Program-made: the position numbers and the translations under genes | Notes under the pieces: generated by a model | Seen by the model: only the letters and a program-made list of their open reading frames with translations | Database searches by the model: none | Told to the model about the DNA's origin: nothing | IMG/VR virus record: IMGVR_UViG_3300030099_000192 | Span: 1-21,809 of that record | DNA from: a virus | Direction: 5' to 3' (one strand) | Length of the DNA stretch: 21,809 nt | Part shown: positions 9,570 to 21,772 of the stretch, piece by piece | How the letters are laid out: each line of letters begins with the position of its first letter | Numbering within the stretch: position 1 is the first letter of the stretch

Positions 9570-9590
9570 GTTATATTGAGCTATAACTAT
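9567..9590. repeat. 24-bp palindrome inside the capsid promoter
   Basis: ATAGTTATA (9567-9575) and TATAACTAT (9582-9590) form a perfect 9-bp inverted repeat around a 6-base spacer. It covers the -10 element and the promoter spacer, the classic place for an operator, and it also includes the stop codon of the oxygenase gene. It could bind a dimeric regulator or, if transcribed from upstream, form an AT-rich hairpin. Confidence 0.65.
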
Positions 9591-9597
9591 TTGTCAA
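9570..9597 (-). promoter_or_regulatory. Sigma70-type promoter for the capsid genes
   Basis: On the minus strand TTGACA (9597-9592, perfect -35 consensus) is followed by a 16-bp spacer and TATAAC (9575-9570, five of six -10 consensus bases). The predicted start is near 9563, about 200 nt before the capsid ATG. The -35 lies within the last codons of the oxygenase gene. It suggests that host RNA polymerase transcribes the capsid unit separately. Confidence 0.7.
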
Positions 9598-10255
9598 CAC
9601 TTTTTTCTTTTGGTACTTCAATGAAATTCATATTCATACTAAAAGACCTTCGTTCACCTTTTGTGTAGAAAGGATAAACACAGTGAAACAATTGTGAAGG
9701 AAAAACATAAAAGTCACCAACTTGGGGTTTTATCAAAAAGTTGGTACAGCTATAACCTGCTGATGTACCGTTTGCAAATTGAATATGCCCATGTGAAGGA
9801 TGGTGGTCTTTATAGTCCTCTTCCCATTCTTTTTCTATTCCATCAGGTAGTTTTAAATAACCAACGCATGATAAACGACAACTTGTATGAATATGCAAGG
9901 GATTATACTCTTGCTCAAACTGTCGTACAAACCATCCTGATACAATTTGTACTCCATAATTAAAATTTTCAGGGTCTAAAGTTTTAGCTCCCATTGAATT
10001 ACGATATTCACTATACGCTTGATATTTGCCTATAAACTGACCAACTCCTGCTTGTGCTATTTTAATTGTTTCTTCATCAAACTTCAACTCTTCTTTAACT
10101 TTACCAACCAATTTATTAGAATAGTCTTGTAGTTTATCTGACATGCGATTGTTTAGTTTTTCAACTAAATCAGTTGGCATTTTAAAATAGCCCATAGTCG
10201 GACCGAATGGAGCAAGTAACTCCATATCTTTTTGTGGTTTATATATTACACTCAT
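9587..10255 (-). CDS. 2OG-Fe(II) oxygenase-like protein
   Basis: This 222-residue protein resembles the putative 2-oxoglutarate/Fe(II) oxygenases common in marine phages (2OG-FeII_Oxy_5 type). EYNPLHIHTS at 117-125 supplies an HxH in place of the classical HxD. It is followed by a hydrophobic core strand (LSCVGYLKLP), GHIQF, and GDFYVFPSQLFHCVYPF (180-196) with the distal His at 191. RRSFSMNMNF (202-211) supplies an Arg-x-Ser-like 2-oxoglutarate contact. Its ATG overlaps the scaffold stop (ATGA), so it is translated with the scaffold, and it ends inside the capsid promoter. A hydroxylase or related oxidation is the family expectation. The substrate is unknown and could be a virion or host protein. 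Confidence 0.8.
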   Translation of the reverse strand: MSVIYKPQKDMELLAPFGPTMGYFKMPTDLVEKLNNRMSDKLQDYSNKLVGKVKEELKFDEETIKIAQAGVGQFIGKYQAYSEYRNSMGAKTLDPENFNYGVQIVSGWFVRQFEQEYNPLHIHTSCRLSCVGYLKLPDGIEKEWEEDYKDHHPSHGHIQFANGTSAGYSCTNFLIKPQVGDFYVFPSQLFHCVYPFYTKGERRSFSMNMNFIEVPKEKSVDK

Positions 10256-15419: not shown

Positions 15420-17006
15420 TTAATATCCGAATGTTGAGTCTGCTACTCGTAAACCCCCAGTAGGTGTACCCGTAGGGTCGTAATCAAATATGCTAAACCT
15501 TGGTCTTGACATTATACCATATCTTAACGCATCATACAAATGGTCTTCCGAATGCGTGTCAATATCCTCTGGATTTTTTTTGTCCAAGGGCAACGCAGGC
15601 AATTGGGAGATAATGTTCGTGCAACTATTAAAGAAAACAAGGCGCGGCTCCTCTGTATATTCGTCTATCTGTAATCTTCTGTGAACTTCATTTTTACCAG
15701 CTACTCTACTTCCTCTGCTTCTATCTGATGGTCGCCATCGACAACCCTTACTAATCATTTGTTCTGCCAAAGATGGACCAGTATCCCCACGCTTATGCCA
15801 AAGGCTAGAGTCCAACACACCGTACTTAATATTACCATCGCCACTTTCTAACTCCATAACCATTTCTGCTAAATCAGTAGCTAATACTTTGGACACATAT
15901 AATTCTCTATAAACAATCAATTGTTCTGATGGTGAAACAGCAAACCATAATACACCACTAAAAGAACCATATCCATAATCGCATGCTCTAAACTTTACCC
16001 AATTTGACGGAATTGTAAAAGGTTCAATAACATGAGCAGTTCGGTCAAACTCTGTAAAGGCAGCACCTTCTTTAATATCCCAGTCTCCTTCCAACAACTG
16101 CTTACGCTGTTGCTCTGGTAAAGATAAAAGCATTGCTTCATAATCACCAGTCTCTGACAAGAAAGGATTGTCAGAAAGTCTTGCAGGTATAAATCGTCTT
16201 TTAAATAATGACTCTCCTGCTTTTGGGTGTCCATGCGGATAACGTAGAACTTCTGTTGTTTCTATGTTCGTTGCGTCAAAAGACTTTCCGTATGGTGCTG
16301 GGTCAATAAACATTTTCTTAACCCATGCATGCCCCCTACCTCCGGGGTTTGTTGTTGCCCTCATAAAGATAGGCAAATCTGGTGCAGTGGAACGTAGACG
16401 ACTTCGCATGTAATCCCATGCATATGGTGTGGACCATTGTGTCAGTTCGTCAAAACCTATCCAGCTAAACGCTAGACCCTGATAACGCAAGACATCTTCA
16501 TCTCTATCGAGGTATGACATCCACAACCTTGCGCCAGATGGTGCGGTCCACTGCATCTTTCTTTCTGACCACTTAATGCCGGGCCATATTTTAGGGTATA
16601 ACTCTTGCGATTTAAATATAAGTTCTCTTAACTCTTCGGTTGTATGTCGCAAAAGCAATCCACTAAACTGTGGATGCCCCATATATCTTAAAGGGTCAGC
16701 AAGCATGGCGTAACTCTTGCCGCCACCTGCACTGCCACCATAAAGAACTTCTCGTTCACTTGCTGCCAAAAAATCAGTTTGAGGTCCTGCATTTGGCTTG
16801 AACAACACATTAGCTGTTTCTTCAATTGGTGTTACATCATCTAGATTTGATTCAGTTATATTAACTATACTACTTGATGTATCAAGCTTCGGCTTCTTTT
16901 GCACCTGTTCTTTGGGTTTCAATTTCTTGCGCTTTGGCGATTGCCTTTTCCGCATAGTCTGCCCACTGGCGGATGCCTTTAGCTTTGTTCTTACGCTGTC
17001 GTTCAT
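15420..17006 (-). CDS. terL: Terminase large subunit (DNA-packaging ATPase/nuclease)
   Basis: This 528-residue motor protein has a Walker A (GGSAGGGKSY, 90-99), a Walker B (FSWIGFDEL, 180-188) with catalytic Glu, and a coupling motif (RATTNPGG, 216-223). The C-terminal RNase H-like nuclease shows FRACDYGYG (Asp343), VLDSS (Asp399) and EDHLYDALRYG (acidic residues near 488-492). It cuts concatemeric DNA and pumps it through the portal. The annotated start overlaps the upstream HTH gene by 125 bp. The first 40 residues are Lys/Arg-rich and could be overprinted or spurious. A GTG at 16808 near the conserved NVLFKPN is an alternative start. The family looks like Terminase_6. Confidence 0.92.
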   Translation of the reverse strand: MNDSVRTKLKASASGQTMRKRQSPKRKKLKPKEQVQKKPKLDTSSSIVNITESNLDDVTPIEETANVLFKPNAGPQTDFLAASEREVLYGGSAGGGKSYAMLADPLRYMGHPQFSGLLLRHTTEELRELIFKSQELYPKIWPGIKWSERKMQWTAPSGARLWMSYLDRDEDVLRYQGLAFSWIGFDELTQWSTPYAWDYMRSRLRSTAPDLPIFMRATTNPGGRGHAWVKKMFIDPAPYGKSFDATNIETTEVLRYPHGHPKAGESLFKRRFIPARLSDNPFLSETGDYEAMLLSLPEQQRKQLLEGDWDIKEGAAFTEFDRTAHVIEPFTIPSNWVKFRACDYGYGSFSGVLWFAVSPSEQLIVYRELYVSKVLATDLAEMVMELESGDGNIKYGVLDSSLWHKRGDTGPSLAEQMISKGCRWRPSDRSRGSRVAGKNEVHRRLQIDEYTEEPRLVFFNSCTNIISQLPALPLDKKNPEDIDTHSEDHLYDALRYGIMSRPRFSIFDYDPTGTPTGGLRVADSTFGY

Positions 17007-17882: not shown

Positions 17883-18335
17883 TTAACTTACCAATTCAAA
17901 ATGCGGCGCATCAATAAATGCCCGACGGCCCTGTGAGCGTCTAAGGTCTACGTAAGCATTCATTAAATCTTCAGATGAACCTTCCCAATCAGTTAGGTTT
18001 TGATGCCATGCTGCACCCCATCTTAATTTTACATTATTATTTAAAGCAGCTTCTTTAAAAGCATCAGCAATGTCATCGTACAAATTGAGTTCCCAAGAAA
18101 TTCTTGAACCTAAATAAGCAACAACATCAACAGCATCACCTGTCAAGTGAAGACTTTTCATAGTCTGGCTCGCGCCTTTATCAACAAGCTCGCGTTGTTC
18201 TGCTTCCGTTCTTAAACCACAGGTCACGCCAAAATCAATTTTAGACAGTTTGATGGCCTCACAAACTACTGAATGCATTTCATTTTTAACACCATTTAAT
18301 CTTGATAAACTCTTTTGTGAAAGTTGGAATGCCAT
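17883..18335 (-). CDS. M15-family peptidase endolysin
   Basis: This 150-residue enzyme has AAGGAG eight bases before ATG. Motifs of the M15 (T5 endolysin-like L-Ala-D-Glu or D-Ala-D-Ala) peptidases are visible: GLRTEAEQ (40-47), SLHLTGDAVDVV (61-72) giving zinc ligands His63 and Asp70, and DAPHFELV (142-149) giving His145 as third ligand. RWGAAW (105-110) is a further family motif. It would cleave peptidoglycan stem peptides at the end of infection. There is no signal peptide or cell-wall-binding domain, so it depends on a holin for access, as expected for a phage of Gram-negatives. Confidence 0.9.
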   Translation of the reverse strand: MAFQLSQKSLSRLNGVKNEMHSVVCEAIKLSKIDFGVTCGLRTEAEQRELVDKGASQTMKSLHLTGDAVDVVAYLGSRISWELNLYDDIADAFKEAALNNNVKLRWGAAWHQNLTDWEGSSEDLMNAYVDLRRSQGRRAFIDAPHFELVS

Positions 18336-18347
18336 CTTGTATCTCCT

Positions 18348-18575
18348 TTATTTACATTTTCCACAACATTCGTTGTTGTTACCTCTAGCGGTTACATATC
18401 CTGCAACAATACCAACAACACCAACTAATGCATTATTTAATAGTGCTAGTATGCCTTCATCAAATTTACCACCATGTTCGGAAGCAATCATAAATTCATC
18501 CACGACTATAATTCCTAATAACCCCATTAATCCGAGAGCTAAAATCATAACTGTAATATCTTTTAAATTTTTCAT
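18348..18575 (-). CDS. Second small membrane protein, Cys-rich C-terminus
   Basis: This encodes 75 residues, with ATG overlapping the stop of the preceding holin gene (ATGA), so the pair is likely translated together. Two hydrophobic segments (about 8-26 and 44-62) flank a loop rich in acidic residues (VDEFMIASEHGGKFDEG). The tail is unusual: GNNNECCGKCK carries three Cys in four-residue spacing at the C-terminus, possibly a metal or disulfide site. It may be an antiholin or holin partner, which is inferred from position. I do not recognise a named family. Confidence 0.7.
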   Translation of the reverse strand: MKNLKDITVMILALGLMGLLGIIVVDEFMIASEHGGKFDEGILALLNNALVGVVGIVAGYVTARGNNNECCGKCK

Positions 18576-18973
18576 TTTGTTAATCCTTTCTGCTTCTCAT
18601 ATGTGCGGAGTCCACCTATTCCAAGCATGCCACCCAAAACAGTTAAAAGTGTACCCATGTCAAATTCTGGAAGCTCTGGTAAATCTGCACCTGCAAAAGA
18701 TGCACCAAATATAATTAAGTCTTTTAAAATAAAGTGATATGCAAAAGCAATCGCACAGACCCACCCTACGGCTGGTCGCCATCCGCCTTTAAATATCGAA
18801 CCTGATGCTGCTTCAGCTTTATTTATTTCTAACTGAGCAAGCATAGCTTCCTGCGCATGTTTTTCAGACATGGTGGCTATTTCGTGAGCCAACTTAGCCT
18901 TTTGGTCTTTGTCTTCTATAAACTTATCAAGTATGTTTCCGACAGGTCCTATCAATGCATTTACAATAGACAC
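18572..18973 (-). CDS. Holin of the 3-TM (GTA-holin) type
   Basis: This encodes 133 residues from a GTG start within TAGTG, with AGGAG seven bases upstream. An N-terminal amphipathic region (PVGNILDKFIE) is followed by a Glu/Lys helix with HAQEAMLAQLEINKAEAASG. The signature GGWRPAVGWVCA at 63-74 starts the membrane part (TM near 68-92, and a second at 106-124, TLLTVLGGMLGIGGL). The WRP..GW motif is the hallmark of the gene-transfer-agent holin family (PF11351). It should form inner-membrane lesions that release the endolysin, which is encoded two genes downstream. Confidence 0.85.
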   Translation of the reverse strand: MSIVNALIGPVGNILDKFIEDKDQKAKLAHEIATMSEKHAQEAMLAQLEINKAEAASGSIFKGGWRPAVGWVCAIAFAYHFILKDLIIFGASFAGADLPELPEFDMGTLLTVLGGMLGIGGLRTYEKQKGLTK

Positions 18974-19224
18974 TATCCTACTCCTCTTCTGAACTTTGCA
19001 GTCTTCTTTGCAATAGATTTTGGTTGCTTGACAAATTGTTTGCCTTTACGAGTACCCTCTCGCTTGGCTTTAGTTGTAGCACTATATTCAGCACTTGTCA
19101 AGGATTTTATTGCTTTTTCAGGCAAATAGCGTTCTCCAGTCTGTGAAGATGGTTTACCTGATTTAGTTCTCCACTTTTGTTTGCCCCAAGAGACTAAACT
19201 TTTTTGTGATTTTTTTAATGCCAT
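18973..19224 (-). CDS. Small basic protein of unknown function
   Basis: This encodes 83 residues, strongly basic (Lys/Arg-rich) and without hydrophobic segments. Its ATG follows directly on the stop of the membrane-protein gene (TAA|ATG), with AAAGG upstream. The visible core is SWGKQKWRTKSGKPS, TGERYLPEKAIKSLTSAEY, and a C-terminal KAKREGTRKGKQF and KSIAKKTAKFR. Similar proteins occur widely in marine phage contigs. Candidate roles are nucleic-acid binding or a head-inner protein. None is shown by sequence. Confidence 0.7.
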   Translation of the reverse strand: MALKKSQKSLVSWGKQKWRTKSGKPSSQTGERYLPEKAIKSLTSAEYSATTKAKREGTRKGKQFVKQPKSIAKKTAKFRRGVG

Positions 19225-19714: not shown

Positions 19715-20074
19715 TTACTTATATCCACCGCCTGCTTTTTTATAAGCAACGGCTAACATTTGTGCTTTTCTTGCCGACCATTGACCGGGCTTTCCGCCTT
19801 TTGAGCCAGCTTTAATTCTATTAAATATACGTTTTCTTAATCCGGGTTTAGTGTAGTTACCAGCTTCATTAACTCTACTTTTGCTTTTCTTTTTAGTACT
19901 TTTCGATTTACTGCTTTTTCGAACTGACCCACCTTTCTTGAGTTCTTGTTTTTTCTCCACGCCTTTAATTGTTCCTTTGTTGGCGGCTCCGTAGAAGACT
20001 TGTTCACCTTTCTTCTCCCCATATTGTTTCTTCATGGCAGATTGTATTTTTTTTCCTTTAGGTGTTAGTGGCAT
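19715..20074 (-). CDS. Lys-rich protein with DUF5872-like C-terminus
   Basis: This encodes 119 residues, about a quarter Lys. The N-terminal part has LTPKGKKIQSAMKKQYGEKK and YGAANKGTIKG. The middle is a low-complexity Lys/Ser linker (SVRKSSKSKSTKKKSKSR). The C-terminus NYTKPGLRKRIFNRIKAG with GGKPGQWSARKAQMLAVAY is a recognisable repeat of many phage proteins (DUF5872-like, from memory). The ATG sits within GGATAAGGAGATG, and AGGA seven bases upstream serves as the ribosome site. The basic character suggests nucleic-acid or virion interior binding. A small terminal domain shared with giant-virus proteins would be interesting, but is not shown. Confidence 0.75.
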   Translation of the reverse strand: MPLTPKGKKIQSAMKKQYGEKKGEQVFYGAANKGTIKGVEKKQELKKGGSVRKSSKSKSTKKKSKSRVNEAGNYTKPGLRKRIFNRIKAGSKGGKPGQWSARKAQMLAVAYKKAGGGYK

Positions 20075-20083
20075 CTCCTTATC

Positions 20084-20443
20084 CTATCTATTTGGGTCAT
20101 AAAATTCTTCAGCTGCGACACCAACAAGAAGTGTATCTGCTGCTGACGCTGCGACAATAATTTTGTCTTCTGAATGAATGTAGAGTGGTTTATCCATTGT
20201 CACTAGATGTGTTATTGTTTTTGTATTTGAAGCATGAGCATCAAACAACGTAGTTGTTGTATTTGCCTTTTTATTAAAATACTTAACAGTAAAGGTTCTA
20301 TTGCTACCATCATTATTTGCTACAAAAACATTTTCGATATGTGCTGCAAAGTTTTTTGGAACAACATAACAATCTGTATCGTTTGTTGAAGACAACGCAG
20401 TTATGTCTGTTCTAAATTTTGAACCCTCTGCTACTCTAGGCAT
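20084..20443 (-). CDS. Small beta-rich virion-type protein
   Basis: This encodes 119 residues whose ATG overlaps the stop of the SET gene (TAATG). The pattern is beta strands of alternating polar and hydrophobic residues: DCYVVPKNFAAHIENVFVAN, NRTFTVKYFNK, TITHLVTMDKPLYI, DKIIVAASAADTLLVGVAA. It has no membrane segment or catalytic motif. The layout parallels the 118-residue protein between the fibre genes, suggesting a paralogous pair of small virion proteins that each work at a different site. Linkage to the SET gene could mean co-function or simple packing. Function is unknown. Confidence 0.7.
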   Translation of the reverse strand: MPRVAEGSKFRTDITALSSTNDTDCYVVPKNFAAHIENVFVANNDGSNRTFTVKYFNKKANTTTTLFDAHASNTKTITHLVTMDKPLYIHSEDKIIVAASAADTLLVGVAAEEFYDPNR

Positions 20444-20793
20444 TATCTACTTTCCCAATACTCATCACCATAATCGTGACAGATTTCTTCGTTTTCTTTT
20501 ATTTCTTTAACCGCAACAAAACGAATAAAGCGGTTATCTTCTTCGCTAATTTCCCACTCAGCATTTGGGTCTGAGCTATGATTATACACCATGCCCAGAC
20601 CAAGTGCGATGAGATACTCTTCACAATCATCATTGGGAGACTGAAACATATAATCATGTAGGATACAATTTTTTCCCACATCATCGTCATCTGTAACCAA
20701 ATAAGGGCAGAGTTCAATCGTATCACCCACAGAATATTGTCTATCAGCAAATACACCTTGCCCATGAAGTTGTGAATCTTTGACATATGGCAT
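20443..20793 (-). CDS. SET-domain lysine methyltransferase-like protein
   Basis: This 116-residue protein is little more than a SET domain. HGQGVFA at 10-16 is the N-terminal loop, and YNHSSDPNAEW at 70-80 carries the NHSxxPN motif that contributes to S-adenosylmethionine binding. ICHDYGDEYW at 104-113 matches the C-terminal EIxxDYG motif with the catalytic Tyr. It is about the size of the chlorovirus vSET enzyme (119 residues), which methylates host histone H3. Both ends overlap their neighbours (TAATG at each), so it is translationally linked to the Lys/Met mini-protein upstream and the beta-rich protein downstream. The substrate is unknown. A lysine-rich partner is a hypothesis. Confidence 0.9.
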   Translation of the reverse strand: MPYVKDSQLHGQGVFADRQYSVGDTIELCPYLVTDDDDVGKNCILHDYMFQSPNDDCEEYLIALGLGMVYNHSSDPNAEWEISEEDNRFIRFVAVKEIKENEEICHDYGDEYWESR

Positions 20794-20972
20794 TACTTCT
20801 TTTTCTTAGCCATTCCGCCACGCATCATTTTCTTTTTTGCCATCATCATGCCGCCACCACGCATTTTCTTTTTGGACATCTTGGCCATACCACCGCCCAT
20901 CATTTTTTTCTTTGCCATGCCGCCACGCATCATTTTTTTCTTCTTAGCCATTTTTGCTTTTCCCATTGCCAT
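20793..20972 (-). CDS. Lys/Met/Gly repeat mini-protein
   Basis: This encodes 59 residues from ATG 20972 (AAGGAG eight bases upstream), with TAA overlapping the SET start. It contains 20 Lys, 17 Met, 11 Gly, 7 Ala, 3 Arg and one Ser. It is built from degenerate repeats of the type MAKKKMMRGG, MAKKKMMGGG, MAKMSKKKMRGGG and MMMAKKKMMRGG, ending MAKKKK. There is no hydrophobic core or signal. The nucleotide sequence repeats as well. Such Lys/Met/Gly mini-proteins occur in marine phages. Nucleic-acid condensation in the head or another polycation role is plausible but unproven. Its first 29 bases overlap the preceding gene's end. Confidence 0.75.
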   Translation of the reverse strand: MAMGKAKMAKKKKMMRGGMAKKKMMGGGMAKMSKKKMRGGGMMMAKKKMMRGGMAKKKK

Positions 20973-21489
20973 TTCGTAGTCTCCTTCTATCTATTACTAG
21001 GGTTTGATATATATCATCAGGAAAATGTTTATAATATCCTGACTTCGCTAGACTCATTGCTGCGTCATCCAACAATGAAAGTTTTTGTACAAAGACCATG
21101 CAATAAGATAAATTCTTATCTGTTACACCGTCATCTACAAGAAAATCCAGACCTGCTTCTTTTGCGTCATAATCTGGATGAAACACCATTAGGTGCATAT
21201 CATGCCCTGCTAAAGACAGAGCTTCGTTTATACCATCACAGAATCCATCAAGGTATTCTACATCAGGCAACAGATGACTTGCCCATATAACTATATCGTA
21301 GTTATGACAGTCAAAGTCAACTATCTCTTTGACCAGACCTTCTAAGCCTGTATTAATACTAAATGTAACCTTATTATCTAACCATGCTTGTTTAGCATAA
21401 GGACATGGTGGTAAACCATTTAGTTTCGCATTTGGTACTTCTAAAAATTCATGCGACCATTTACGAATGTCAGCTTCTATTGGATGCAC
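20944..21489 (-). CDS. Possible DUF1415-like protein (uncertain start)
   Basis: The frame ends in TAA at 20944. Its reading upstream of about 21475 coincides with the neighbouring gene, so the true start is probably a GTG at 21489 (about 181 residues). It lacks a clear ribosome site. The protein has IRKWSHEFLEVPN, then LPPCPYAKQAW, a hydrophobic DIVIWAS strand, and MVFHPDYDAKEAG. From memory the CP(F/Y)A and FHP.Y elements recall the DUF1415 family, which has no known function, but the match is distant. The last 28 bases overlap the mini-protein gene. A longer overlapping version (to 21663) is possible. Confidence 0.6.
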   Translation of the reverse strand: MHPIEADIRKWSHEFLEVPNAKLNGLPPCPYAKQAWLDNKVTFSINTGLEGLVKEIVDFDCHNYDIVIWASHLLPDVEYLDGFCDGINEALSLAGHDMHLMVFHPDYDAKEAGLDFLVDDGVTDKNLSYCMVFVQKLSLLDDAAMSLAKSGYYKHFPDDIYQTLVIDRRRLRNGNGKSKNG

Positions 21490-21772
21490 GAGTTTTTCGT
21501 TTTTGTTGTTCAATAAATTTTCTGTAGACAGCTGCGGCTGCTTTCTTGCCAGCAACCCTCGCCCTTTGTTCCATAGCGATTGCAGCTTGCGTTTTATGTG
21601 CATGACTACGCCCAGAGGATTTAATCTTACGAACAGATTCTTCAGCATCTTTAACTGTAGCAAACTTTAAACCTTTTATTGTACCTTTAGGATTCTCATC
21701 TGTATAAAGGTCGCTGTGTTTTTTAGACTTAGCGGGTTGGCCTTTTTTTCTTGGCACTCTTGGATTTGCCAT
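21470..21772 (-). CDS. Basic protein of unknown function
   Basis: This encodes 100 residues from ATG 21772 with AAGGAG five bases upstream (AAGGAGTTATTAATG). It is Lys/Arg/Ala-rich. Features are PRVPRKKGQPAKSKKHSDLY, NPKGTIKGLKFATVKDAEESV, GRSHAHKTQAAIAM and ARVAGKKAAAAVYRKF. The KGTIKG element also appears in the Lys-rich protein at 19715-20074, hinting at a shared module. It has no membrane segment or signal. It may be a virion-interior or nucleic-acid-associated protein. No name can be given. Confidence 0.7.
   Translation of the reverse strand: MANPRVPRKKGQPAKSKKHSDLYTDENPKGTIKGLKFATVKDAEESVRKIKSSGRSHAHKTQAAIAMEQRARVAGKKAAAAVYRKFIEQQKRKTRASNRS

Follow-up and report, generated by a model that had tools for sequence, protein, structure and literature searches.

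We present evidence that a marine podovirus of the HMO-2011 type carries a gene for a predicted SET-domain protein lysine methyltransferase, and we interpret this gene as one shared with SAR116 bacteria and carried by the phages as optional cargo. The proposed explanation, to which we assign a probability of about 0.55 as a whole, is that a minimal single-domain SET lysine methyltransferase, near-core in SAR116 and exchanged between SAR116 and phages, is carried in a variable slot directly behind the gene of a common basic mini-protein, that its translation would be coupled to the stop codon of the mini-protein gene in a late operon, and that the phage enzyme would methylate lysines late in infection. 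As far as our searches reach, a host-shared SET lysine methyltransferase (predicted) as cargo of abundant marine phages is new.

The analyzed sequence, referred to here as the window, is the whole stretch of 21,809 nucleotides from the IMG/VR virus record IMGVR_UViG_3300030099_000192, which is 53,397 bases long. Apart from 18973-19224, given by position alone, the genes cited by window position lie on the minus strand. Just past the end of the window (G000:C1, about 21810), L018 shows a run of N, which marks the record as a scaffold at this point.

Results

The phage is assigned to the HMO-2011 type (53-kb marine podoviruses) by its terminase, by the similarity of its late region and by the presence of the mini-protein at the corresponding place. 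Its large terminase (15420..17006) is 82.8% (~83%) identical to that of Puniceispirillum phage HMO-2011, the nearest isolate by terminase, which infects SAR116, and 82% identical to those of Roseobacter phages CRP-1 and CRP-345. The endolysin (17883-18335) and a GTA-type holin (18572-18973), both late-region landmarks identified by profile matches, lie together with the terminase on one strand around the SET gene, and the SET region is therefore likely to be expressed late. Elsewhere in the window, among the structural genes and adjoining a major-capsid-like gene, there is a 2OG-Fe(II) oxygenase gene (9587-10255; PF13759, E=3.6e-17), which is a second possible protein-modifying enzyme of this phage.

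The original prediction described a 59-aa protein with 20 Lys that shares a TAATG with a complete SET gene, and both ORFs are present as described (20793-20972 and 20443-20793, respectively). The SET ORF (20443..20793) encodes 116 aa with a net charge of -19 and matches Pfam PF00856 over its full length (profile 1-105/105, E=8.8e-13) with 49 bits compared to the curated cut-off of 22.4. The analogy to the small chlorovirus enzyme vSET, drawn in the same prediction, holds both by sequence and by fold. The vSET of PBCV-1 is the best solved sequence match (E=2e-18), followed by fission yeast Set7, and it is also the top fold match (3kma, TM 0.77) of an AlphaFold2 (AF2) model that was built from 46 aligned sequences and has a mean pLDDT of 88.3; the top five PDB fold matches are all small SET enzymes.

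Y16, Y50, N69, H70, Y105 and Y109 of vSET are active-site positions. Across 42 HMO-type SET sequences, the equivalents of Y50, N69, H70, Y105 and Y109 never vary; they include N71 and H72 (the NH cofactor motif) and Y108 (the catalytic Tyr) of the window SET. The phage protein also shares the YWxSR C-terminal end of vSET. The equivalent of Y16 is replaced by L, H, Q or F in nearly all HMO-type SETs, which leaves the vSET tyrosine set (Y16, Y50, Y105, Y109) incomplete. This replacement could be taken to mean that the protein lacks catalytic activity and serves only for binding or as a decoy, which we consider very improbable given that every other tested position of the active site is invariant and that the gene is under purifying selection, with dN of 0.02-0.07 compared to dS of 0.11-1.04 in eight sequence pairs. 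Both the SET and the mini-protein genes are kept in frame in dozens of contigs. The phage SET would use SAM to methylate lysines in an exposed basic segment, late in infection. Distant phage SETs of L258 and L259 carry NSS where the NHS motif would stand and are possibly altered or inactive; in L258, the SET gene and that of a small basic protein adjoin each other (1140-1517 and 1517-1744).

The mini-protein (20793..20972, by ORF translation) is rich in Lys, Met and Gly: its 59 residues comprise 20 K, 17 M, 11 G, 7 A, 3 R and 1 S, with no acidic residues and a net charge of +23. Four copies of a K/M-rich unit of the form ...MRGG/MGGG make up its repetitive character, and the 20-nt pattern of this unit occurs at 4 sites in the mini-protein gene and at none in the rest of the window, against an expectation of 0.00; chance does not account for the repeat. 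The mini-protein is a common protein of HMO-2011-type phages. HMO-2011 itself has a 50-aa Lys-rich version at L247:7629-7781 (minus strand) that is unannotated and whose stop codon overlaps gp65, an annotated virion structural protein, by 1 nt. A search of annotated phages with the mini-protein gave no match, probably as a result of low-complexity filtering, because HMO-2011 does have a mini-protein. A search of the SAR116 genomes likewise gave no match, a result that is uninformative for want of a positive control. In L305, L311 and L312, the mini-proteins ahead of SET have a C-terminal extension (...AAMLRSKNLTKAEAAAIYNAVKGMKN).

The mini-protein stop and the SET start overlap by 1 nt in TAATG. 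Such coupling is ordinary in this window, since SET and the next gene (20084-20443) also overlap in TAATG and junctions of 0 nt, 1 nt or 4 nt are present elsewhere. A boundary of the TAATG type is found in most of the 91 SET loci described below, with some SETs starting with GTG (TAGTG overlap) or TTG. The SET gene has no clear Shine-Dalgarno sequence of its own and the ATG of the mini-protein gene is preceded by AGGAG; consequently, SET is probably translated by reinitiation at the mini-protein stop codon, in a late operon.

The genes on both sides of this pair define its setting. Upstream, a conserved gene of the family phrog_28122 (20944..21516, E=1.6e-76), whose own start is not assigned with certainty, extends 29 nt over the start of the mini-protein gene and adjoins the mini-protein gene in 44/44 sequences with SET and 40/43 sequences without SET that were tested. 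Behind SET lies the gene of a 119-aa protein (20084..20443) that is modeled as all-beta (AF2 pLDDT 85.9, strands only), is highly variable between related phages and is present with and without SET. Its fold matches are weak only and include phage tail-needle knobs and a cement protein, which suggests, if weakly, that it is probably a virion accessory protein. The downstream border of the slot is formed by the gene of a basic protein of 119 aa (19715..20074; phrog_17747, E=9.8e-34; 24% Lys, charge +30), present in 41/44 sequences with SET and 37/43 without. This protein and two more, of 100 aa (21470..21772, 17% Lys) and at 18973-19224 (22% K), both recognized by composition, are further Lys-rich small proteins nearby; the original prediction had mentioned several such proteins in the same operon. 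The products of 19715-20074 and 21470-21772 are possible alternative phage substrates of SET.

Co-occurrence of SET and the mini-protein was surveyed in SET loci collected from IMG/VR searches and from other scans, of which 91 distinct ones have 250 nt or more of upstream sequence. Within HMO-2011-type phages the expected co-occurrence is borne out, as the mini-protein is found ahead of SET in all 86 distinct loci with sufficient upstream sequence. The distance between the two is within 10 nt in 83 of these loci and 177-203 nt in the other three (L014, L015, L309); in L014-L016, a 46-aa ORF is located between mini-protein and SET. The remaining five of the 91 loci (L318, L251, L257-L259) belong to other phage types, where SET occurs in unrelated contexts and no mini-protein is present. 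A different picture emerges from a terminase-based sample, which was chosen to avoid bias and offers 26 loci whose upstream sequence is long enough: 24 of them have the mini-protein but only 4 have SET, so that 20 of the 24 mini-protein genes occur without SET. The association is thus strict one way only, in that SET implies the mini-protein but not the reverse, and the enzyme and the basic partner do not strictly need each other, since SET in turn exists without the mini-protein in SAR116 and in other phages. Although it is a phage of SAR116, HMO-2011 has no SET gene.

In phages without SET, the slot behind the mini-protein is occupied by the 119-aa beta protein, by short ORFs, by an oxygenase that by eye resembles HMO-2011 gp61 or, in HMO-2011, by gp65. 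The phrog_28122 gene and the downstream basic gene flank the slot in phages with and without SET. Mapping the presence of SET on the tree of the upstream gene yields 7 gains or losses, at least 3 of which are forced by supported branches, indicating that SET has been gained, lost or exchanged, each time at the slot behind the mini-protein. These observations could also be explained if SET were slot cargo whose adjacency to the mini-protein is maintained by nothing more than gene order together with recombination across the repeats of the mini-protein gene, with a target among host proteins unrelated to that of the SAR116 enzyme. The variety of unrelated genes in the slot, the conservation of its border genes regardless of SET and the unrelated contexts of SETs in other phages are consistent with such an incidental neighborhood. 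However, SET comes first behind the mini-protein in 83/86 loci even though the slot is often shared, and free cargo might also sit elsewhere; we regard this explanation as improbable.

When 84,980 species genomes were scanned, the nearest cellular relatives of the phage SET, with 53-58% identity, came from nine SAR116-type alphaproteobacterial genomes. A narrow alignment had detected no cellular relative; the SAR116 SETs were recovered with a broader one. Of 49 genomes of the SAR116 family, 43 have the gene, which makes it near-core there, and among 289 sampled alphaproteobacterial genomes strong matches occur in three, all of which are in the SAR116 family list. The SAR116 SETs stand alone in several chromosomal contexts with no Lys-rich neighbor; one such context, in our own reading of the sequences, is presumably between old-yellow-enzyme-like and metallo-beta-lactamase-like genes. 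This vSET-like SAR116 gene (L319-L327, L377-L388), near-core in its family and rare in other Alphaproteobacteria, appears to be uncharacterized. In an unrooted tree, the phage SETs come together with those of SAR116 in a supported clade (98/96), within which they make up a single group (91/78), and vSET falls outside this clade on a long and poorly placed branch.

The phage SET is best read from these comparisons as a host-shared accessory enzyme in a late operon, and it is probably host-derived. Because of the near-core presence of the gene and its conserved housekeeping contexts in SAR116, transfer from host to phage would be the simplest direction, with phage and SAR116 SETs as neighboring groups in the unrooted tree; the phage/host identity of only 53-58% counts against this direction.

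Discussion

The main question raised by these results is which protein the phage enzyme would methylate. The original prediction favored the coupled mini-protein or other basic phage proteins, and in its general form this proposal amounts to a dedicated pair, where the substrate of SET would be the mini-protein, or further basic proteins from the late genes of the phage, and methylation would alter the binding of the polycation to DNA or capsid. Part of that proposal stands: SET in HMO-2011-type phages always accompanies the mini-protein, at a fixed place as a pair would show, and the two lie in the late region near holin, endolysin and terminase. The mini-proteins of phages with SET are also richer in Lys (31.8 compared to 28.4%) and in KKK (5.1 compared to 2.8 counts) than those without, and the KKK contrasts are never reversed; however, there are just three supported independent contrasts, which is too few for significance. 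Precedents exist in prokaryotes, as cpnSET of Chlamydia pneumoniae is reported to methylate Hc1 and Go1-SET of Methanosarcina MC1alpha, both small basic DNA-binding proteins (PMC10117894), and methyl-lysine can occur on phage virion proteins (PMC13288928). Those two enzymes differ from the present one in that they are not phage-encoded, and no member of the Hc1 family was found in 51 SAR116-family genomes.

The retention of the mini-protein without SET, the variable slot, the SETs of other phages without a mini-protein and the host SETs without an adjoining basic partner speak against a dedicated pair. Charge complementarity (-19 for SET, with a family mean of -19.5, versus +23 for the mini-protein) was set aside as evidence for the pair, because the SAR116 SETs are likewise acidic (-10 to -19) and the acidity of the phage enzyme is therefore ancestral. 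All things considered, a dedicated pair is a tentative proposal that we hold to be clearly less probable than the host-shared cargo. Its more specific form, in which HMO-2011-type phages have captured a bacterial SET and dedicated it to modifying their own mini-protein, so as to tune a methylated protein that resembles a histone tail and is located in the virion or on the injected DNA, appears somewhat less probable still and is unlikely.

Under the preferred reading of SET as host-shared cargo, our leading guess for the target, at roughly even odds, is the same SAR116 protein that is modified by the host enzyme. Such a shared target fits the origin of SET, the fact that the host gene has no partner and the optional presence of SET in phages. 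A host target had been the alternative in the original prediction, and it gains weight from the near-core, lone SAR116 SETs, while the KKK contrasts and the late region leave a phage target with some support. Next among the candidates comes the mini-protein coupled to SET, or else some other basic phage protein made late, with a smaller yet appreciable chance of being correct.

Among known systems, vSET (A612L) of chlorovirus PBCV-1 is similar in being a stand-alone minimal SET protein (~119 aa) of a DNA virus. It is packaged in the virion and trimethylates H3K27 (PMC7019647). In contrast to the HMO-2011-type phages, PBCV-1 infects algae with histones, and the phage SET differs from vSET in its strong acidity (-19 versus +1), in the replaced Y16 and in its grouping with SAR116 bacterial SETs. 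The SAR116 (Puniceispirillaceae-type) enzymes resemble the phage SET in identity, length and acidity and share a clade with it but are chromosomal and alone. The closest isolate by terminase, HMO-2011, has the same terminase and the same kind of mini-protein at the corresponding place but differs in the absence of SET and in the gp65 structural gene that its mini-protein overlaps instead.

Conclusions

The open-licence papers searched contained no description of a SET methyltransferase from a phage, and the main text of a 2022 paper on HMO-2011-type genomes makes no mention of SET or methyltransferase. It was only in 2026 that methylation of phage proteins was reported, both in infected cells and in virions, and the phages concerned are not known to encode methyltransferases (PMC13288928). 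The present results indicate that an abundant and widespread group of ocean phages carries its own predicted SET enzyme, whose SAR116 relative is near-core yet apparently uncharacterized. They raise the testable question of whether a protein lysine methyltransferase brought by the phage acts on the host or on the phage's own basic proteins; if the latter holds for the coupled mini-protein, the two genes would constitute a phage-encoded pair of enzyme and polycation.
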